From the NCBI RefSeq assembly GCF_026016465.1, contig NZ_CP100390.1, positions 1,774,001 through 1,838,000 on the forward strand: 64,000 nucleotides of DNA. Reading direction: 5' to 3'. The DNA is from Alkalimarinus alittae (GTDB lineage Bacteria; Pseudomonadota; Gammaproteobacteria; Pseudomonadales; Oleiphilaceae). Every line of letters begins with the position of its first letter. Positions within the stretch are counted from its first letter, which is position 1. The notes under the pieces are model-generated. The model worked only from the letters and a program-made list of their open reading frames with translations. It made no database searches and was not told the DNA's origin. Below are positions 345-51,627 of the stretch, in pieces. The translations under genes were made by a program, and so were the position numbers.

Positions 345-1760
345 TTACTCAATATCTTCAGAATCTTTAAGCTTTTGTGCGGCTGATTCGAGCGCGCGAA
401 CAATTTGCTCTTTTTCACTTACACCGATTTTCCCTGTATCGAGATACATCGCAAAACCGGTCGTTTCGTGCTCCATAAAGCTTTGGTTTGCACCTATCTC
501 GCGTCTGAAATCAACTACTTCATAAATAGGCACTGAGCGCGAAAAGCCTTTAACGGTAATTTCGCCTTTATCGCGGCACATAACCATATCTTTAACCAGT
601 GAGAATGTTTCGTATGAAACAAGAATCTCACCCGGCTCAGCAAGGCTTTCTAGACGGCTAGCCAAGTTAACTTCTTTACCGATAATGGTATAGTCCATGC
701 GGTTTTCAGCACCGAAGTTACCAACGGTGCAGTAACCCGTGCTAATACCCATTCTGATCTCAAGAGGTGTTCTAATACCTTGGCTCTGCCATTTTTGTCT
801 TAGAATCTTCATGCGTTTACGCATATCTATTCCCATCGCAACACAGGCTAGAGTATCTTCTTTTGCGCCTCGGCTTGTGGGGTCACCAAAAAATATCATG
901 ATGCTATCGCCAACAAATTTATCGATGGTGCCACCATACTTTAGAGCAATTTGTGACATGGCATTAAAGTAGGTGTTCAATAATTCGGTCAGGCTTTCAG
1001 GTTCCATTTCTTCTGACAGTTCAGTAAAACCTTTAATGTCGGAGAAGAATACGGCTAATTTTTTACGCTGTGTTTCGAGTCTTACATCTCGCTCACCGGT
1101 AAAAATAGACTGCCATACCTGAGGTGAAAGATATTTCGCTAGCTTATGAGATAGCGTTATAGATTGCTCTCGTTGATGCTGAATAAGAGATTTTGCATGT
1201 ACCAGTGTACGTGCTTGTTGGTGGGTATAGTATGCCGTTACACATATATAGATACCAACACTAAGGCCAGAGATGATGCTGACAGAAATAGGCGTTGGCG
1301 GCGCGATACTAATACCAAAAAACATAGATGTAAGGCAGATGCTGACGAACCAAGCTAGGTTGCCGTAAAGCCAGCTTTTCATTCCGCCGACAATAATAAA
1401 ACTGAAGTTCAGCATTAAAATAAATAGCAGCGTCGGAACCAAGCTGAAATCAATCAATACGACTATTGGACCTGTTAGAAAGGCATCTAGTAACAACAAA
1501 CGTTGACGAACAATAGGGTTACGTTGCCTGTTAAAATACCGTACGACAAAATAAAGCAAGTGTGGCCAAAGTAGTGACCCTGGAATTATCCAGATAAGAT
1601 TGGGGTCAAAATGGTCGCTTAAGATACCTGCAACAATAATCGCAACACCGGCCAAATAGGCTAAAACGCGGGCGTTGTAGTCCGGCATTGGTGGGATGGC
1701 GACTTGCTTAACGGGTTTAATTTGCCGAGTTGTTTTATTTGTTATAGTCATTGAATTCAT
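345..1760 (-). CDS. cyaB: Class III adenylate cyclase with N-terminal MASE2 membrane domain (CyaB-like)
   Basis: Predicted to make cAMP from ATP. Residues about 25-185 form a multi-helix membrane domain with the MASE2 signatures WPHL (65-68) and LLLDAF. A CyaB-type linker (LSHKLAKYLSPQVWQSIF, about 203-220) follows, then the catalytic domain from about 235. Metal-binding aspartates are visible at D241 (FSDIKGF) and D285 (VGDS). The adenine-selecting pair K281 and D356 and the transition-state residues N365 and R369 are also present, so the enzyme looks active and specific for ATP. The length of 471 aa matches Pseudomonas CyaB. The gene is divergent from the nitroreductase gene; ATGs at 1760 and 1751 are both possible starts. 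Confidence 0.88.
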   Translation of the reverse strand: MNSMTITNKTTRQIKPVKQVAIPPMPDYNARVLAYLAGVAIIVAGILSDHFDPNLIWIIPGSLLWPHLLYFVVRYFNRQRNPIVRQRLLLLDAFLTGPIVVLIDFSLVPTLLFILMLNFSFIIVGGMKSWLYGNLAWFVSICLTSMFFGISIAPPTPISVSIISGLSVGIYICVTAYYTHQQARTLVHAKSLIQHQREQSITLSHKLAKYLSPQVWQSIFTGERDVRLETQRKKLAVFFSDIKGFTELSEEMEPESLTELLNTYFNAMSQIALKYGGTIDKFVGDSIMIFFGDPTSRGAKEDTLACVAMGIDMRKRMKILRQKWQSQGIRTPLEIRMGISTGYCTVGNFGAENRMDYTIIGKEVNLASRLESLAEPGEILVSYETFSLVKDMVMCRDKGEITVKGFSRSVPIYEVVDFRREIGANQSFMEHETTGFAMYLDTGKIGVSEKEQIVRALESAAQKLKDSEDIE

Positions 1761-18555: not shown

Positions 18556-19167
18556 ATGAGTAAATTACTTCAAATTAATAGCAGTCTTTCAAACGATCAG
18601 GGCCAGTCGACTCAGTTAGCAGATTTCTTTGTTTCAAAACTTATTGAGAAAAAACCTGATACAGAAGTAAAGACACTCGACTTATCAAAAAACCCATTAC
18701 CCCATTTAGACGGTGAGCGGTTCAAGGCACTGGTTACACCGGCTGACCAACGCTCTGAAGGTGAGGCCGCTATTGTGGCAGAGGCAGATGAGTTGTTAGC
18801 TGACATTCAAAACGCATCAGCCATTGTTTTTGCATTGCCTATGTATAACTTTGGTATTCCATCGGTCTTGAAGTCGTACTTTGATCACTTGGCACGAGCG
18901 GGTGTGTCTTTCAAATATACCGAAAACGGACCTGTAGGTTTATTAGACGATAAGCCTGTTTACATTCTTGCGGCGAGAGGAGGGGTTTATCAAGGAATGC
19001 CTGCAGACACACAAACAGAGTACATGAAGACATTTTTAGCATTTATTGGTTTAAAAAATGTGCAGTTTATTTATGCAGAAGGTTTGAATTTGGGGGAGGC
19101 GTCTAAAGAGAAGTCTTTAGACAACGCTCGCCAACAGGTATTGGAGTTGGTTAGCGCATTAGGCTAA
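18556..19167 (+). CDS. azoR: FMN-dependent NADH:quinone reductase / azoreductase AzoR
   Basis: A 203-aa flavodoxin-like protein, against 201 aa in E. coli AzoR. SKLLQINSSLSNDQGQST binds the FMN phosphate (about 2-19) and PMYNFGIPSVLKSYFDHLARAG (about 95-116) forms the isoalloxazine site, followed by AARGGVY. The family reduces azo compounds and quinones by two electrons using NADH. I chose the ATG at 18556, with AAGGTGA 6 bp upstream; a GTG at 18547 overlaps that site. It is divergent from the pirin-lysR unit, and its promoter carries the same palindrome. Confidence 0.93.
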   Translation: MSKLLQINSSLSNDQGQSTQLADFFVSKLIEKKPDTEVKTLDLSKNPLPHLDGERFKALVTPADQRSEGEAAIVAEADELLADIQNASAIVFALPMYNFGIPSVLKSYFDHLARAGVSFKYTENGPVGLLDDKPVYILAARGGVYQGMPADTQTEYMKTFLAFIGLKNVQFIYAEGLNLGEASKEKSLDNARQQVLELVSALG

Positions 19168-19177
19168 AGGTAGCGGG

Positions 19178-19209
19178 TTTGTAGGTCGGCTGCGAGTCCG
19201 ACCTACAAA
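19178..19209. terminator. 12-bp stem-loop after azoR (possible bidirectional terminator)
   Basis: tttgtaggtcgg (19178-19189) pairs perfectly with ccgacctacaaa (19198-19209) across an 8-nt loop, between two converging genes. There is no T-tract, so termination is not assured; it may be a dispersed palindromic repeat. Confidence 0.5.
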
Positions 19210-19233
19210 CACTAAAGCCTAGGCTTTAGTGTT
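19208..19233. repeat. 26-bp perfect palindrome across the PEP-CTERM stop codon
   Basis: Arms aacactaaagcct (19208-19220) and aggctttagtgtt (19221-19233) abut with no spacer. The palindrome covers the last codons and stop of the PEP-CTERM gene and could act as part of its terminator. Confidence 0.6.
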
Positions 19234-19851
19234 GTTTCGAGTTAACGTTAACCCCATTAAACCAAGGCACATTAGAGCAATTGTAGAAGGCTCTGGAACG
19301 GAAGCAACAACGTTTTTAGCGGTTATGGTCGCTTGTATTGTTTGAGATAATGTACAACCTTTTCCACCGCAAGAATCGCTTACCGCAGAAAACTCAACAC
19401 CAAATATTGAGCCGTCACCTAAGGTGATGTCGCTAGGTTGTCCTGAAAGGTCGAAGGTCAATCCTCCCACACCGCCCCAGCCAAACACCCAAGCCCAAGC
19501 AGCTCCGCCAAGTCCGGTTCCGCTTGCATCAACTGCACCAGGAGAAGAAAAGGCGAGTGTCGCTTCGACTACCCCACCGATGGCACCCCAACCGGACGCA
19601 GGACCATAAAGGTCAGCGTTAAAAAAATCAAAGGTGTAACTATCGCCGGCGGCTAAACTAAATATTTCGCTATCTAAACCAGACGCAAGTGTAAGGTTGG
19701 TTGTACAACCCGAACACAAAGTAATGCCGCTTGAGTCTACAGATGAACCTGCGCCATCAACGTCAAAATCTAGTGTGGGCATTGCAAATGTGCTCGCACT
19801 AAAACTCAAGGCTATTGAAATGAGAGCGCTGCTAATTAATCGATAAATCAT
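19219..19851 (-). CDS. Secreted protein with PEP-CTERM sorting signal
   Basis: A 210-aa exported protein. A Sec signal peptide covers about 1-23 (ending TFAM). The C-terminus has the exosortase recognition motif VPEPSTIALMCLGLMGL followed by a basic tail (TRNNTKA), the classic PEP-CTERM tripartite signal. The middle is Gly/Ser/Ala-rich with CSGC and CGGKGC cysteine pairs, and its function is not recognisable. Such proteins are sorted to the envelope or exopolysaccharide. The start is preceded by AAGGAG, which abuts a GEMM-like riboswitch, so production probably responds to cyclic di-GMP. The exosortase gene is not in this window. Confidence 0.9.
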   Translation of the reverse strand: MIYRLISSALISIALSFSASTFAMPTLDFDVDGAGSSVDSSGITLCSGCTTNLTLASGLDSEIFSLAAGDSYTFDFFNADLYGPASGWGAIGGVVEATLAFSSPGAVDASGTGLGGAAWAWVFGWGGVGGLTFDLSGQPSDITLGDGSIFGVEFSAVSDSCGGKGCTLSQTIQATITAKNVVASVPEPSTIALMCLGLMGLTLTRNNTKA

Positions 19852-20238
19852 AGTTATGCTCCTTCTTGTAACCCGGCTGCCTTTGTTATTATTTAGGCCC
19901 GTGGCTTTCCGTCCCCTTCTTGCGAAAGGTTTGGCGATTAACGTAATTGTGAGATGAATCTCTCGGGCTACTAAAAGGCAATCAATATGCCAGAAAGAAT
20001 AAGGCGTTGATCTATTGTGGTTATTATTTTTTGGCTTTCTATAAGTCGATCACTTGTGTAAGTAATGTCGACATTGAAACCGTTGTATGAATTTTATCGC
20101 GGAGCAGTGTAAGCGATGCATTAAGAAAATTTTTTCGTTTGAAGCTTAAATTTCGTTAACATCCACCGTTTTATTTGTGTGTTGGGTTAAAGTAGCAGTT
20201 ACACTGAAGCTCATTGGTCCTTTGATAAGGTTATAAAG
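19852..20238. other. Divergent intergenic region, PEP-CTERM gene / reductase fusion
   Basis: A 387-bp gap. The left third is the GEMM-like riboswitch read on the minus strand. The remainder (19946-20238) should contain the promoters for both directions; I see no motif there strong enough to mark. Confidence 0.5.
19858..19945 (-). ncRNA. GEMM-I type cyclic-di-GMP riboswitch upstream of the PEP-CTERM gene
   Basis: On the minus strand the leader reads GCCAAACC, then CUUUC-GCAA-GAAGGGG (a hairpin capped by a GNRA tetraloop), then ACGGAAAGCC, then the CGGGCCUAAAUAAU internal segment, then AAGGCAGCCGGGUUAC. This is the order of conserved blocks in GEMM-I aptamers such as Vc2. In Vc2 numbering as I recall it, the ligand-contacting G20 (19935) and C92 (19868) are kept, which favours c-di-GMP over cGAMP. 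The usual G21-C46 pair is replaced by C21 (19934) and G46 (19909), a compensatory swap. The PEP-CTERM gene's AAGGAG lies at the 3' edge, so control of translation is likely. Confidence 0.85.
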
Positions 20239-22392
20239 ATGAAAAAAGGCATAATTCTAGGTTTAATCGCGGTCGTTATTGTTTTATTTTTTAGTTATGA
20301 CCTTCAGAGCCTACTGACATTAGACGGCTTAAAGAATGGCTTGAGTGATTTTGAAGTGTGGCGATCAGAGTCGCCGCTTTTGGTCGCCTTCGGTTTTTTA
20401 ACTGTTTATGTTTTAGTGACCGCGCTTTCATTGCCGGGTGCAGCGGTGATGACATTAGCCGCAGGCGCTTTATTTGGCGTACTCTGGGGTACGGTCATAG
20501 TCTCTTTTGCCAGTTCGATGGGCGCGACGTTAGCCTTTTTAGCGTCACGCTACTTTTTGCAAGAAACGATACAAACCAAATTTGGTGATCGGTTAAAAGC
20601 CATTAATGAAGGCATCGAAAAAGAAGGTGCTTTTTATTTGTTTACGCTTCGTTTAGTGCCTGTTTTCCCTTTCTTTCTGATCAACTTGCTCATGGGGTTA
20701 ACCCCCATTAAAGCGGCTACCTTTTATTGGGTTAGTCAGATTGGTATGTTGGCCGGAACCATTGTTTACGTCAATGCTGGTACTCAGTTAGCGCAAATCG
20801 ATAGCTTGTCGGGGATTTTATCGCCTGCGTTGCTATTCTCTTTTGTTTTGCTCGGTATTTTCCCTTTAATAGCCAAAAAGATTATTGCTATCTTTCAAGC
20901 AAAACGAGTGTATGAAAAATGGACAAAGCCCTCAACGTTCGACCGTAACTTAATTGTGATTGGTGCCGGAGCAGGTGGTTTAGTGTCTTCTTATATTGCG
21001 GCGGCAGTAAAAGCAAAAGTGACCTTAATCGAGGCCCATAAAATGGGGGGCGATTGTTTAAATTACGGTTGTGTCCCGAGTAAAGCCTTAATAAAAAGTG
21101 CCAAGTTAGCCAAGAAAATGCAGAACGCTGAAAACTATGGACTTAGAAATGTTCAGCCTGAATTCTCATTTAAAAAAGTCATGCAGCGAATTCATAACGT
21201 CATTGCTGAAGTAGAGCCACATGATAGCGTAGAGCGTTATACCGGCTTGGGCGTCGAAGTATTACAAGGCTATGCCAAGCTGATTGACCCATGGACTGTT
21301 GAAGTTGCATTAAATGATGGCGGTACCCAACGGTTAACGTCACGCAGTATTGTCATCGCTGCGGGTGCCAGCCCCTTTATTCCACCGTTACCGGGAATTG
21401 AAGCGTCGGGTTATGTGACCAGCGATACCCTATGGGATGAGTTTGCCAAGCGAGATGAGATTCCCAAGCGATTAGTCGTATTAGGTGGCGGCCCAATTGG
21501 ATGTGAGTTATCACAAAGCTTTGCGCGCTTAGGTAGCGAGGTGATTCAAATTGAGCGCGGTGAGCGCATTATGGCCAGAGAAGATCAAGAGGTCTCTGAG
21601 CTGGCCAAAGCGAGTTTAGAACGTGATGGTGTTCGAGTGTTAACAGCACATTCGGCATTGCGCTGTGAGCAAGAGAGTGGTGCAAAGTTTATTGTGGTTG
21701 AGCATCAAGGGGTTGAGCAGCGAATTGAATATGATGATTTACTCTGTGCTGTCGGGCGGGTAGCACGTTTGACCGGCTACGGACTTGAAACATTGGGGAT
21801 CGAAACTAATCGAACGGTCATCACCAATGAATACCTCGAAACCTTGTATCCAAATATTTATGCCGCAGGAGATGTGGCTGGGCCATTCCAATTTACCCAT
21901 ACTGCCGCTCATCAGGCTTGGTATGCCGCGGTAAACGCCTTATTTGGGCAGTTTAAAAAGTTTAAAGCAGATTACAGTGTTATCCCCTGGGCGACATTTG
22001 TTGACCCAGAAGTGGCCCGTGTTGGCTTCAATGAACAAGAAGCCAAAGAGCAGGGTATTGCGTATGAAGTGACGAAATACGGTATCGATGATCTTGATCG
22101 AGCGATTGCTGAAAGTGCTGCGCATGGTTTTGTGAAAGTTTTGACGGTGCCTGGTAAAGATAAAATTTTGGGTGTGACCTTAGTTGGTGAGCATGCAGGC
22201 GATTTGTTGGCCGAGTTTGTGTTTGCTATGCGTCATGGCTTGGGACTTAATAAGATACTTGGCACTATTCATACCTACCCAACGTGGGCAGAAGCAAATA
22301 AGTATGCAGCGGGCGAGTGGAAAAAAGCGCACGCACCAGAAGCGGCCCTTCGTTTCTTAGAGAAATACCATACATGGAGAAGAGGGTCATGA
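20239..22392 (+). CDS. VTT-domain membrane protein fused to a pyridine nucleotide-disulfide oxidoreductase (MerA-like)
   Basis: A two-part protein of 717 aa. Residues 1-220 are a multi-helix VTT (DedA/TVP38) membrane domain with an SLPGAAVMTLAAGALFG stretch (about 64-80). From about 235 a soluble flavoprotein reductase follows: the FAD-binding GAGAGG (242-247), the redox cysteine pair C273/C278 in GGDCLNYGCVPSK, a second nucleotide-binding GGGPIGCE, and the catalytic His-Glu pair H678/E685 near the end. It lacks the N-terminal metal-binding domain and the C-terminal cysteine pair of mercuric reductase, so mercury reduction is unlikely. The reductase domain should face the cytoplasm. The next gene overlaps its stop by 4 bp. 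Confidence 0.88.
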   Translation: MKKGIILGLIAVVIVLFFSYDLQSLLTLDGLKNGLSDFEVWRSESPLLVAFGFLTVYVLVTALSLPGAAVMTLAAGALFGVLWGTVIVSFASSMGATLAFLASRYFLQETIQTKFGDRLKAINEGIEKEGAFYLFTLRLVPVFPFFLINLLMGLTPIKAATFYWVSQIGMLAGTIVYVNAGTQLAQIDSLSGILSPALLFSFVLLGIFPLIAKKIIAIFQAKRVYEKWTKPSTFDRNLIVIGAGAGGLVSSYIAAAVKAKVTLIEAHKMGGDCLNYGCVPSKALIKSAKLAKKMQNAENYGLRNVQPEFSFKKVMQRIHNVIAEVEPHDSVERYTGLGVEVLQGYAKLIDPWTVEVALNDGGTQRLTSRSIVIAAGASPFIPPLPGIEASGYVTSDTLWDEFAKRDEIPKRLVVLGGGPIGCELSQSFARLGSEVIQIERGERIMAREDQEVSELAKASLERDGVRVLTAHSALRCEQESGAKFIVVEHQGVEQRIEYDDLLCAVGRVARLTGYGLETLGIETNRTVITNEYLETLYPNIYAAGDVAGPFQFTHTAAHQAWYAAVNALFGQFKKFKADYSVIPWATFVDPEVARVGFNEQEAKEQGIAYEVTKYGIDDLDRAIAESAAHGFVKVLTVPGKDKILGVTLVGEHAGDLLAEFVFAMRHGLGLNKILGTIHTYPTWAEANKYAAGEWKKAHAPEAALRFLEKYHTWRRGS

Positions 22393-50221: not shown

Positions 50222-50260
50222 AATAAGCCTTGATGATTGGGGCTAGCAAAGGGGTGTCAC

Positions 50261-50386
50261 ATGTATACAGATATTGTTGTTTTAGCTGGCATAGGTACCG
50301 TAGGCCTGATGGTGGCGTTTATGGTCGGGTTTGCTTATTTTTTTGCTAAAGATGGAAAAAAGAGAAGTAAGTTAAACTATAAATGA
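50261..50386 (+). CDS. ccoM: CcoM-like small subunit of cbb3 cytochrome oxidase
   Basis: A 41-aa membrane peptide, read by eye: MYTDIVVLAGIGTVGLMVAF, then MVGFAYFFAKDGKKRSKLNYK. It has a short acidic N-terminus, one membrane helix with the TVGLMVAF-x-x-GF pattern, and a basic tail. This strongly resembles CcoM, the tiny subunit first seen in the Pseudomonas stutzeri cbb3 oxidase structure, where it stabilises the complex. A strong AAGGGGTG ribosome site is 7 bp upstream, and a perfect Anr/FNR box precedes it. Both support a real, low-oxygen-induced gene. The main cco genes are not in the window. Confidence 0.75.
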   Translation: MYTDIVVLAGIGTVGLMVAFMVGFAYFFAKDGKKRSKLNYK

Positions 50387-50388
50387 AG

Positions 50389-50417
50389 TTGAGAGCCTTA
50401 TATGTAGGCTCTCAATT
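50389..50417. terminator. Bidirectional terminator between ccoM and the EAL-HDOD gene
   Basis: A 10-bp stem (ttgagagcct 50389-50398 with aggctctcaa 50406-50415), a 7-nt loop and a T-rich 3' side. It lies just after the ccoM-like stop and touches the end of the converging gene. Confidence 0.75.
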
Positions 50418-51627
50418 ACTCTTCTGTATGCTTACCGGCCCAAGTAACGCTTTCAATATACATTCTATTTAAATCAATTTTTGAAATCCCGAATCGTTCT
50501 AGTAAATTCCAGTGGATTGCCTGCCACTTTGATTGTTCGTAATGCTTTGCTGTATGAATTGCTAGTCCTGCCTTTCCACGGTAATGGATAAGTGCATCGG
50601 ATATCGTTGCTTCTAACGGTAAGGATAATAGTAGTTCTTTCAGAGGTGTATCGAAGTAGATATCTAGGCTCGAAAGTAAGCCTGTTGTAAAGTATAAATC
50701 AGGCTGATCGGGTGATAGTTTTTGAGACAGAAGTTCGCACAGTCTTGCTCTTGCTAGCGATATTTGTCTTAGCGATACTGGCTTGTCATCCATTTTGCTA
50801 AGTGCAAGCAGGCTAGACCAGCTCTTAATCTTGCTGATGCCTATCATCATTACAGCCATGTGTATCGAGTCTATAGTGACGGCTCTTCTATAAGCGGCTG
50901 AGTTTACCAGTTTAAGTAGCTTGAAACTTAGCGTTGGATCTTTCGATATAATGGCGTTAAGTTCAGTTACATTGACGGCAGGGTTTTGTAATTCGCTAAT
51001 TAGTTGAAGTACTGCTAGCTTATTTTGCGGTAGTTTTTGTCCTTTAATTATCTCAGGTTTACTTAAAAAATAGCCTTGAAAAAGGTCGCAACCTAAACCT
51101 TTACATAGGTTGTAGTCTTTTATTGTTTCTATTTTTTCGGCTAGAAGCGTGTTAGAAAATTGTCTTAAATGGTTGATTGCACTTTTTAATTCATCGGCAT
51201 TCATGGCGGGAAGTTCAAGCTTTATGATATCAGCCAGAGGTAGCAGGGGTTTGTAACGCTCATCCATCACAAAATCGTCTAGGGCGATGCGGTATCCCTT
51301 ATGTTTGAGATTTTTTATTGCATCTACAACATCTGTATCAATAATGATGTCTTCGAGCACTTCAACAACAATGAGTTCGGGGTTGAAGGGAGGGGGGGCT
51401 AGTAAAAGTTCTTTTGTAAAGTTAACAAACGCAGGTTTATTGCCGGTTACTTTTTCTATGTCGCCTTCCGTAAAGGCGTTAAGTAATACTCTGGACGTAG
51501 CAATATTGCCATCAAAATTTGGCATATCGCATTTATCTTCTGGCCTGAACAGAAGTTCATAGGCTACTAATTCTTGTTGAGTATCATAAATAGGCTGTCG
51601 CGCTAACAATACATTTTGTTCGGTCAT
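50416..51627 (-). CDS. EAL-HDOD signal protein with degenerate EAL domain
   Basis: A 403-aa protein of the YuxH/CdgJ type: an N-terminal EAL-like domain (about 1-205) and an HDOD domain (about 210-395). The EAL motif is ELL (VAYELLFRP), and the loop-6 motif DDFGTG reads DDFVMD, so phosphodiesterase activity is unlikely. Vibrio cholerae CdgJ, with the same architecture, affects motility. HDOD domains act as protein-interaction platforms. It is transcribed toward the ccoM-like gene. Confidence 0.88.
   Translation of the reverse strand: MTEQNVLLARQPIYDTQQELVAYELLFRPEDKCDMPNFDGNIATSRVLLNAFTEGDIEKVTGNKPAFVNFTKELLLAPPPFNPELIVVEVLEDIIIDTDVVDAIKNLKHKGYRIALDDFVMDERYKPLLPLADIIKLELPAMNADELKSAINHLRQFSNTLLAEKIETIKDYNLCKGLGCDLFQGYFLSKPEIIKGQKLPQNKLAVLQLISELQNPAVNVTELNAIISKDPTLSFKLLKLVNSAAYRRAVTIDSIHMAVMMIGISKIKSWSSLLALSKMDDKPVSLRQISLARARLCELLSQKLSPDQPDLYFTTGLLSSLDIYFDTPLKELLLSLPLEATISDALIHYRGKAGLAIHTAKHYEQSKWQAIHWNLLERFGISKIDLNRMYIESVTWAGKHTEE

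Follow-up and report, generated by a model that had tools for sequence, protein, structure and literature searches.

A predicted c-di-GMP-I riboswitch between a sigma-54-like promoter and a PEP-CTERM gene in Alkalimarinus alittae

Introduction

Which signals switch on the surface display of PEP-CTERM proteins, and may c-di-GMP be one of them? The question is raised by a locus of Alkalimarinus alittae in which the leader of a PEP-CTERM gene resembles a GEMM-I RNA. In the PEP-CTERM/exosortase system described by Haft et al. in 2006 the stimulus of PrsK was called obscure (PMC1569441). The locus lies in a contiguous stretch of 64 kb, the whole of which is referred to here as the window. What the DNA itself establishes is a PrsR-box-like motif, a sigma-54-like promoter, an aptamer with intact ligand-contact positions, a ribosome site and a PEP-CTERM ORF, in an order that recurs among relatives.

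Organization of the locus

The protein encoded downstream of the leader carries a C-terminal PEP-CTERM signal recognized by PF07589 (27.3 bits, cut-off 20.7) and TIGR02595 (25.0 bits, cut-off 16), and its hydrophobic N-terminus reads by eye as a signal peptide. On the minus strand, the GEMM-I blocks appear in the order GCCAAACC, a GCAA-capped hairpin, GGGGACGGAAAGCC, CGGGCCUAA and CCGGGUUAC, followed by AAGGAG and the ATG of the gene (Table 1). The original prediction had described the same order of blocks, ending at the AAGGAG of a PEP-CTERM gene, and both the blocks and the gene are found as described; the association of such a leader with PEP-CTERM genes recurs in 45 of 48 leaders of one subtype, characterized below. 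It had also called the window rich in flagellar and GGDEF/EAL genes, which is true of the flagellar cluster and too strong for the second group, with one GGDEF and two EAL proteins among the 28 of 55 ORFs scanned.

Adjoining the flagellar cluster, positions 345-1760 (minus strand) code for a protein with MASE2 and adenylate/guanylate cyclase domains. Farther along the window, a PhrS-like RNA (RF01673, 61.7 bits, cut-off 37) occupies positions 50222-50422 of the plus strand, its end overlapping the ORF of an HDOD/EAL protein (50416-51627, minus strand).

Table 1. Features of the PEP-CTERM locus, in window coordinates
Feature	Position	Strand	Basis or remark
PrsR-box-like motif TGTCGACATTACTTACA (motif 1 of Haft 2006)	20057..20073	-	63 nt upstream of the sigma-54 element
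Sigma-54 (-24/-12) promoter-like element TGGCATATTGATTGCC	19977..19992	-	score 0.93 of 1; 0 of 100 shuffles as good
Predicted transcription start	about 19963-19966	-	from the usual distance to the sigma-54 element
c-di-GMP-I (GEMM-I) aptamer, C21-G46 subtype, without P1 helix	19863..19945	-	Rfam, relatives, covariation
Aptamer hairpin 1, GCAA (GNRA) loop at 19920-19923	19914..19929	-	sequence, fold, covariation
Aptamer hairpin 2	19870..19906	-	sequence, fold, covariation
G20 equivalent (ligand contact)	19935	-	alignment; contacts named for Vc2 in PMC4744006
A47 equivalent	19908	-	alignment
C92 equivalent	19868	-	alignment
AAGGAG Shine-Dalgarno, three bases after C92	19859..19864	-	read from the sequence, 19864-19859
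PEP-CTERM protein, 210 aa, C-terminal VPEPST sorting signal	19219..19851	-	PF07589, TIGR02595; ATG starts at 19851

Identity and subtype of the aptamer

The Rfam models match the leader across their whole length. Searched over the genome, RF01051 reaches 66.7 bits at the aptamer (cut-off 35, E 1.2e-12), and one other match has an E value of 0.001 or lower, while the same searches of 14 control genomes gave no matches to RF01051 or RF03167. The other GEMM-I RNA of the genome (L003 1501-1583; C1:2954058-2954140, plus strand, 70.9 bits with RF01051) is of the G21-C46 type, has a poor sigma-54 score of 0.57 and precedes a long ORF. The covariance model thus bears out the proposed GEMM-I identity; the order of blocks alone does not settle the subtype, since the family printed by cmscan for the window is RF03167, the c-di-GMP-I-GGC variant (62.1 bits, cut-off 59, E 2.9e-12), one lower-scoring clan member being omitted beside it.

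That the RNA belongs to this variant and senses another signalling molecule would agree with the family printed by cmscan and with the slightly better E value of RF03167 in the genome search (4.5e-14 vs 1.2e-12); on 211 bases of the leader RF03167 reaches E 9.5e-15. Nevertheless, it is RF01051 that scores more bits, far over its cut-off. Moreover, position 37 of the RF03167 model is a strongly conserved G, and both the window and all 48 family sequences of the subtype carry A there. When aligned to this model the window shows G at position 10 and retains the C92 equivalent. The name GGC we take, in line with the model consensus, to stand for G20, G47 and C92, with A47G as the mark of the variant. 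The window aptamer keeps the equivalents of G20, A47 and C92, the ligand contacts in Vc2 (PMC4744006). Judged by these contacts it is a predicted c-di-GMP-I aptamer, to which the GGC variant fits less well, and the sensing of another molecule by such a variant appears quite improbable.

A preference for c-AMP-GMP would have a different signature. A at position 20 marks c-AMP-GMP sensing (GEMM-Ib), and it is seen in 9 of the 99 class matches of 45 bits or more, while G stands there in the window and in 48/48 family sequences of the subtype. GEMM-I RNAs of this specificity do exist (review PMC7266159), and the G20 position has been called a selectivity factor and no hard filter (PMC9262584); given the invariant G, a GEMM-Ib-like preference is highly improbable here.

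The window differs from the common GEMM-I form in that C21-G46 replaces G21-C46, and this flip appears to be ordinary covariation. Scanned with the exact pattern, named genomes yielded C21-G46 in at least 115 stretches, before many kinds of gene, the matches listed including Deltaproteobacteria, Campylobacterota, methanotrophs and Vibrio. C21-G46 as the mark of a special ligand was rejected, as it is widespread in the scan and often stands before other genes.

The unconstrained minimum-energy fold of the leader contains the GEMM-I hairpins, at an unexceptional energy (z -1.8, 8 of 200 shuffles as good). In the two alignment columns that we take to hold the interhelical C-G pair, C is invariant among the 48 family sequences and G reaches at least 90%.

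Recurrence in the family

Across 163 genomes of the host family RF01051 has 60 matches in 50 genomes, two of which are below the cut-off (31.0 and 32.2 bits), both belonging to the C21-G46 subtype and preceding PEP-CTERM ORFs. The subtype accounts for 48 of the 60 matches. It stands before an intact PEP-CTERM ORF in 45 cases, in 43 genomes, before broken ones in two (G095 and G034, left out of the 45) and before another gene in one; none of the 12 other GEMM-I RNAs of the family precedes a PEP-CTERM gene. The downstream ORFs were chosen by a simple rule; 43 of the 45 met the first pattern used for PEP-CTERM proteins and two end in AEPST. The 48 downstream proteins form 11 blastp clusters (29, 7, 3 and 2 members and seven singletons), ten of them PEP-CTERM, so it is the sorting signal that is shared and not the passenger; with 29 of the 48 proteins in one cluster, the family sets are not independent of each other.

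The G20, A47 and C92 equivalents are invariant in all 48 sequences, at a mean column identity of 67%. In the alignment of these sequences, the window included, 95.2% of the cells are paired and changes on both sides occur in 15 of 20 pairs; none of 500 shuffles reaches as high, a control that does not remove relatedness. Invariant ligand bases together with covarying helices make the pocket look conserved by selection. The GEMM-I identity is hence supported by the covariance models, by the covariation and by the three predicted ligand-contact bases.

The sigma-54-like promoter and the PrsR-box-like motif

In its layout the leader agrees with the one defined by Haft et al., i.e. motif 1, a spacer (63 in the window, within the range of 32-92 nt) and a -24/-12 element. 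Their motif 1 is 17 nt long and ends in TTTACA, where the window has CTTACA, the spacer to the sigma-54 motif 2 is 62.8 (s.d. 10.6), and both motifs were found before 99 of 167 proteobacterial PEP-CTERM genes (PMC1569441). pepA of Aquincola, whose transcription start was mapped, is RpoN-dependent (PMC9850573). A sigma-70 promoter was sought at the window locus and none was found.

The sigma-54 score used here comes from a hand-made weight matrix built on a general consensus, and was tested against mononucleotide shuffles. A promoter-like element scoring 0.80 or more is present in 45 of the 48 subtype leaders (44 at 0.84 or more), the predicted start lying at a median of 27 nt before G20; in the 12 other GEMM-I leaders of the family the score is at most 0.74, so that none reaches 0.80. 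The three subtype leaders devoid of such an element are those of G002, G155 and G157:C12, the last being the case with no PEP-CTERM gene. YTTACA, the core of the PrsR box, lies upstream in 42 of the 45 leaders with a promoter (3.4 expected), and the longer form YGTCRN6YTTACA in 39.

In the genome carrying the window the genes for PrsT, PrsR and PrsK are consecutive and, together with XrtA, fit into about 12.5 kb; all four exceed their NCBIfam cut-offs. The exosortase scores 189.2 bits with PF09721 and 228.2 bits with the XrtA model TIGR03109 (cut-off 208). A sigma-54-like promoter (scoring at least 0.82, with p at most 0.02) precedes nine of the 13 PEP-CTERM genes in this genome, and only one of the 13, the window gene, has the aptamer. 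The PrsR-box-like motif and the sigma-54-like promoter before this gene would constitute a second layer of control, one absent from the original prediction. Two layers probably meet on genes of this kind, because dozens of related marine bacteria show this order too.

Homologues devoid of the aptamer

Homologues of the window protein were sought in 61 sampled family genomes at E 1e-8 or better and include those of G001 (61% identity), G002 (40%), G004 (49% over 50 residues) and G019 (34%); none was found in G003 at this threshold. In G001 and G004, which belong to the same genus, the PrsR-box-like motif is kept (spacer 64) together with a sigma-54-like promoter (0.87 and 0.85), and the leaders give no match to the aptamer model; the distance from the -12 C to the ATG is 57 nt in G001 and 52 nt in G004 vs 126 nt in the window. 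The G002 leader contains both aptamer and box; its promoter scores lower (0.75). Since G001 and G004 have box and promoter and no aptamer, the latter resembles a module that was inserted into, or lost from, a sigma-54 unit already in place, and these homologues offer a natural experiment, with the same promoter and the aptamer absent. It is worth adding that the G001 homologue (L194, 1486-2130), which kept its promoter and PrsR-box-like motif, has an in-frame TAA stop.

The missing P1 helix

The flanks of the window aptamer do not pair as P1, the helix by which Vc2 switches, their duplex energy being +0.8 kcal/mol. P1 pairing is weak in the family subtype as a whole (z -2.1), compared with -10.9 for the class matches and -6.5 for C21-G46 aptamers elsewhere; it reaches -4 kcal/mol or lower in 10 of 48 subtype sequences vs 55 of 99 class matches, and A18 is present in 27 of 48 vs 94 of 99 (P1 was scored on the 99 of 111 class matches that reach 45 bits). 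With P1 taken as typical of the c-di-GMP-I class and not strictly defining it, its absence places the window aptamer as a variant within the class. Vc2 loses binding without P1, and Cd1 binds without a detectable P1, an extra nucleotide tightening this from 1.9 to 0.25 micromolar (PMC9262584); binding of the ligand by the window aptamer is, on this analogy, plausible and not assured.

Many Marinobacter-type leaders (L055, L025) contain a hairpin of the type GAUCGGG..CCCGGUC that ends 4 nt before GCCAAACC, at the place of the P1 5' strand; its mean z over 48 leaders is -1.1.

A leader that lost P1 could be a decayed or P1-less relic, kept as a folded RNA for leader stability and no longer a ligand switch. 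The missing helix in the window and its weakness in the subtype would fit such a history, as would the failure of folding to predict switching (see below) and the fact that the G001 and G004 homologues manage with no aptamer at all. A relic would hardly be expected to keep its ligand-contact bases in 48/48 sequences at 67% mean column identity, with helices that covary, and this explanation is regarded as unlikely.

Proposed mode of switching

Taken together, these features most probably represent a translational c-di-GMP-I riboswitch that occupies the 5' leader of an exosortase substrate gene dependent on sigma-54. PrsK-PrsR and RpoN would activate transcription, and the transcribed leader would then fold into the aptamer and bind c-di-GMP. 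Control would act on initiation of translation, as suggested by the absence of a terminator between aptamer and ORF (no terminator-like site was found on the minus strand within 19100-20300) and by the ribosome site touching the aptamer. With either layer closed the PEP-CTERM protein would not be made; once made, it would be exported and sorted by the exosortase XrtA. In such a scheme c-di-GMP would control the display of a PEP-CTERM protein on the surface, as originally predicted. As to direction, we lean slightly towards ON at high c-di-GMP, an argument from biology and not from folding, as PEP-CTERM proteins are part of sessile life within a matrix.

Folding gives no prediction of ON or OFF for the window and the other leaders, and several switch models fail for the window. 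When its aptamer is forced, accessibility of the ribosome site goes from 0.68 to 0.55 or from 0.17 to 0.15, depending on the 3' end, and opening the start region likewise becomes cheaper, by 0.1-0.8 kcal/mol. Among 46 leaders treated in the same way, accessibility rises by over 0.1 in four and falls in nine; with no consistent direction across leaders, opening of the ribosome site by the formed aptamer was dropped as a model.

Three further pairings were considered and rejected. Anti-Shine-Dalgarno pairing with the aptamer has no general support (-10.1 for own duplexes vs -9.6 for cross pairs), and 30 of 47 foreign aptamers outdo the window's own. Pairing of the 5' flank with the ribosome site beats permuted pairs at p 0.009 in 48 leaders and, with whole flanks, at p 0.0002 in 41 leaders; once the 23 CAACCGG leaders are collapsed to one, p is 0.07, so the signal is perhaps mostly shared ancestry. 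An 8-base match between the G20 strand and codons 4-6 is reached by 150 of 2000 shuffles and is absent from the G002 fold.

A competitor strand can be drawn as well. CCUUUUAGUAGCCCG (19977-19963), upstream of the aptamer, can form about 14 base pairs with the 3' strand of the aptamer and the ribosome site, and its displacement by the ligand would give an ON switch. A fold started at 19990 (3' end 19825) contains this helix, with 6.4 kcal/mol between the free and aptamer-forced states, and forcing the aptamer then raises ribosome-site accessibility from 0.29 to 0.49. The effect is gone when folding begins at the predicted start near 19963-19966. With a sigma-54 start there, most of the strand would lie outside the RNA, i.e. 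be untranscribed; moreover, it is partly kept in G001, which has no aptamer. For these reasons the competitor model was set aside as very unlikely, and the translational riboswitch under a sigma-54-like promoter is retained.

More tentatively, and with somewhat less than even confidence, this GEMM-I subtype may be seen as a module of PrsR/sigma-54 leaders that has largely given up P1 and, placed usually before one PEP-CTERM gene per genome, might form a two-input gate (the PrsK signal and c-di-GMP), switching without P1, unlike Vc2.

Occurrence beyond the family

Among the matches listed in the C21-G46 pattern scan, 124 of 125 were examined, some of which are chance matches to the pattern, and 7 of the 124 precede true PEP-CTERM genes in our own reading. 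Three of the seven are in Marinobacter; the other four pass Rfam clan cut-offs, L102 and L110 as RF01051 and L065 and L113 as RF03167. GG and GC are both present in the sigma-54-like sites of L065 (0.90) and L110 (0.87), from Desulfobacula, and of L102 (0.86), from Glaciecola; L113, at 0.81 without the -24 GG, was not counted as having a promoter. The similar order in two Desulfobacula-type genomes and one Glaciecola suggests that the arrangement is old or has arisen more than once. Among the matches listed, none of seven VPLPA-like cases reaches a sigma-54 score of 0.84.

In the class search 111 rows were used, two of the A. alittae genome itself and four under the cut-off having been dropped, and 110 were examined for promoters. 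A PEP- or VPLPA-like tail is encoded downstream of 10 of 110 class matches in our own reading, or of 6 of 111 by a stricter filter, and none of the ten reaches 0.84, the best scoring 0.835. The PEP-CTERM link is weaker outside the family than within its C21-G46 subtype.

Non-CTERM GEMM-I RNAs with a score of 0.84 or more and p of 0.02 or less number 5 of 107 among the pattern matches listed and 7 of 96 among the class matches. L085, L140 and L177, and class matches G244 and G473, have sigma-54-like sites of 0.95-1.0 and no PEP-like tail downstream, so that the pairing of promoter and riboswitch is not confined to exosortase substrates. In Geobacter sulfurreducens the GEMM-I-controlled gsu1945 and gsu1948 have numbers close to those of the PEP-motif genes GSU1943 and GSU1944 (PMC10599522).

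Relation to known systems

The pairing of a c-di-GMP riboswitch with PEP-CTERM genes is already in print at least once (PMC12530212). In the open-licence literature searched we did not find the composite with sigma-54 or its recurrence, a link between sigma-54 and a c-di-GMP riboswitch, or PrsR together with a riboswitch. New is the sigma-54-like promoter that separates the subtype from the other GEMM-I leaders of the family (45/48 vs 0/12), with the PrsR-box core in 42 of 45. The finding as a whole names c-di-GMP as a likely second signal, acting as a rule on a single substrate gene of each genome, for 43 family genomes, and thereby offers a candidate, beside the PrsK stimulus, for what switches on PEP-CTERM/exosortase surface display. 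The subtype also supplies GEMM-I aptamers with the pocket kept and P1 mostly lost, which bear on the extent to which binding and control depend on P1.

The window shares the class of riboswitch and the kind of gene with Methylophaga nitratireducenticrescens GP59, in which four of seven c-di-GMP riboswitches precede PEP/VPLPA-CTERM genes and for which a role in the choice between biofilm and planktonic life was suggested in a reactor study of this one strain; RpoN, sigma, PrsR and exosortase do not occur in the text of that report (PMC12530212). With the PrsK-PrsR sigma-54 regulon of the PEP-CTERM/exosortase system (PMC1569441, PMC9850573) it shares motif 1, the spacer, the -24/-12 element and the PEP-CTERM ORF, and its genome has PrsK, PrsR, PrsT and XrtA in common with the regulon of Haft et al. 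Unlike in that regulon, a riboswitch sits between promoter and ORF; the main text of PMC1569441 has no occurrence of the word riboswitch. With c-di-GMP-I-GGC (RF03167) the window has in common a score above the family cut-off, but A and not G at position 37. The closest likeness of the RNA itself is to RF01051 and to Vc1 (gbpA) and Vc2 of Vibrio cholerae, in the two-hairpin core, the GNRA loop, the interhelical C-G pair and G20/A47/C92; it is unlike Vc1 and Vc2 in having C21-G46, no P1 and a sigma-54-like promoter in front. Vc1, too, stands before the gene of a secreted surface-binding protein, and it acts as an ON switch (PMC4744006).
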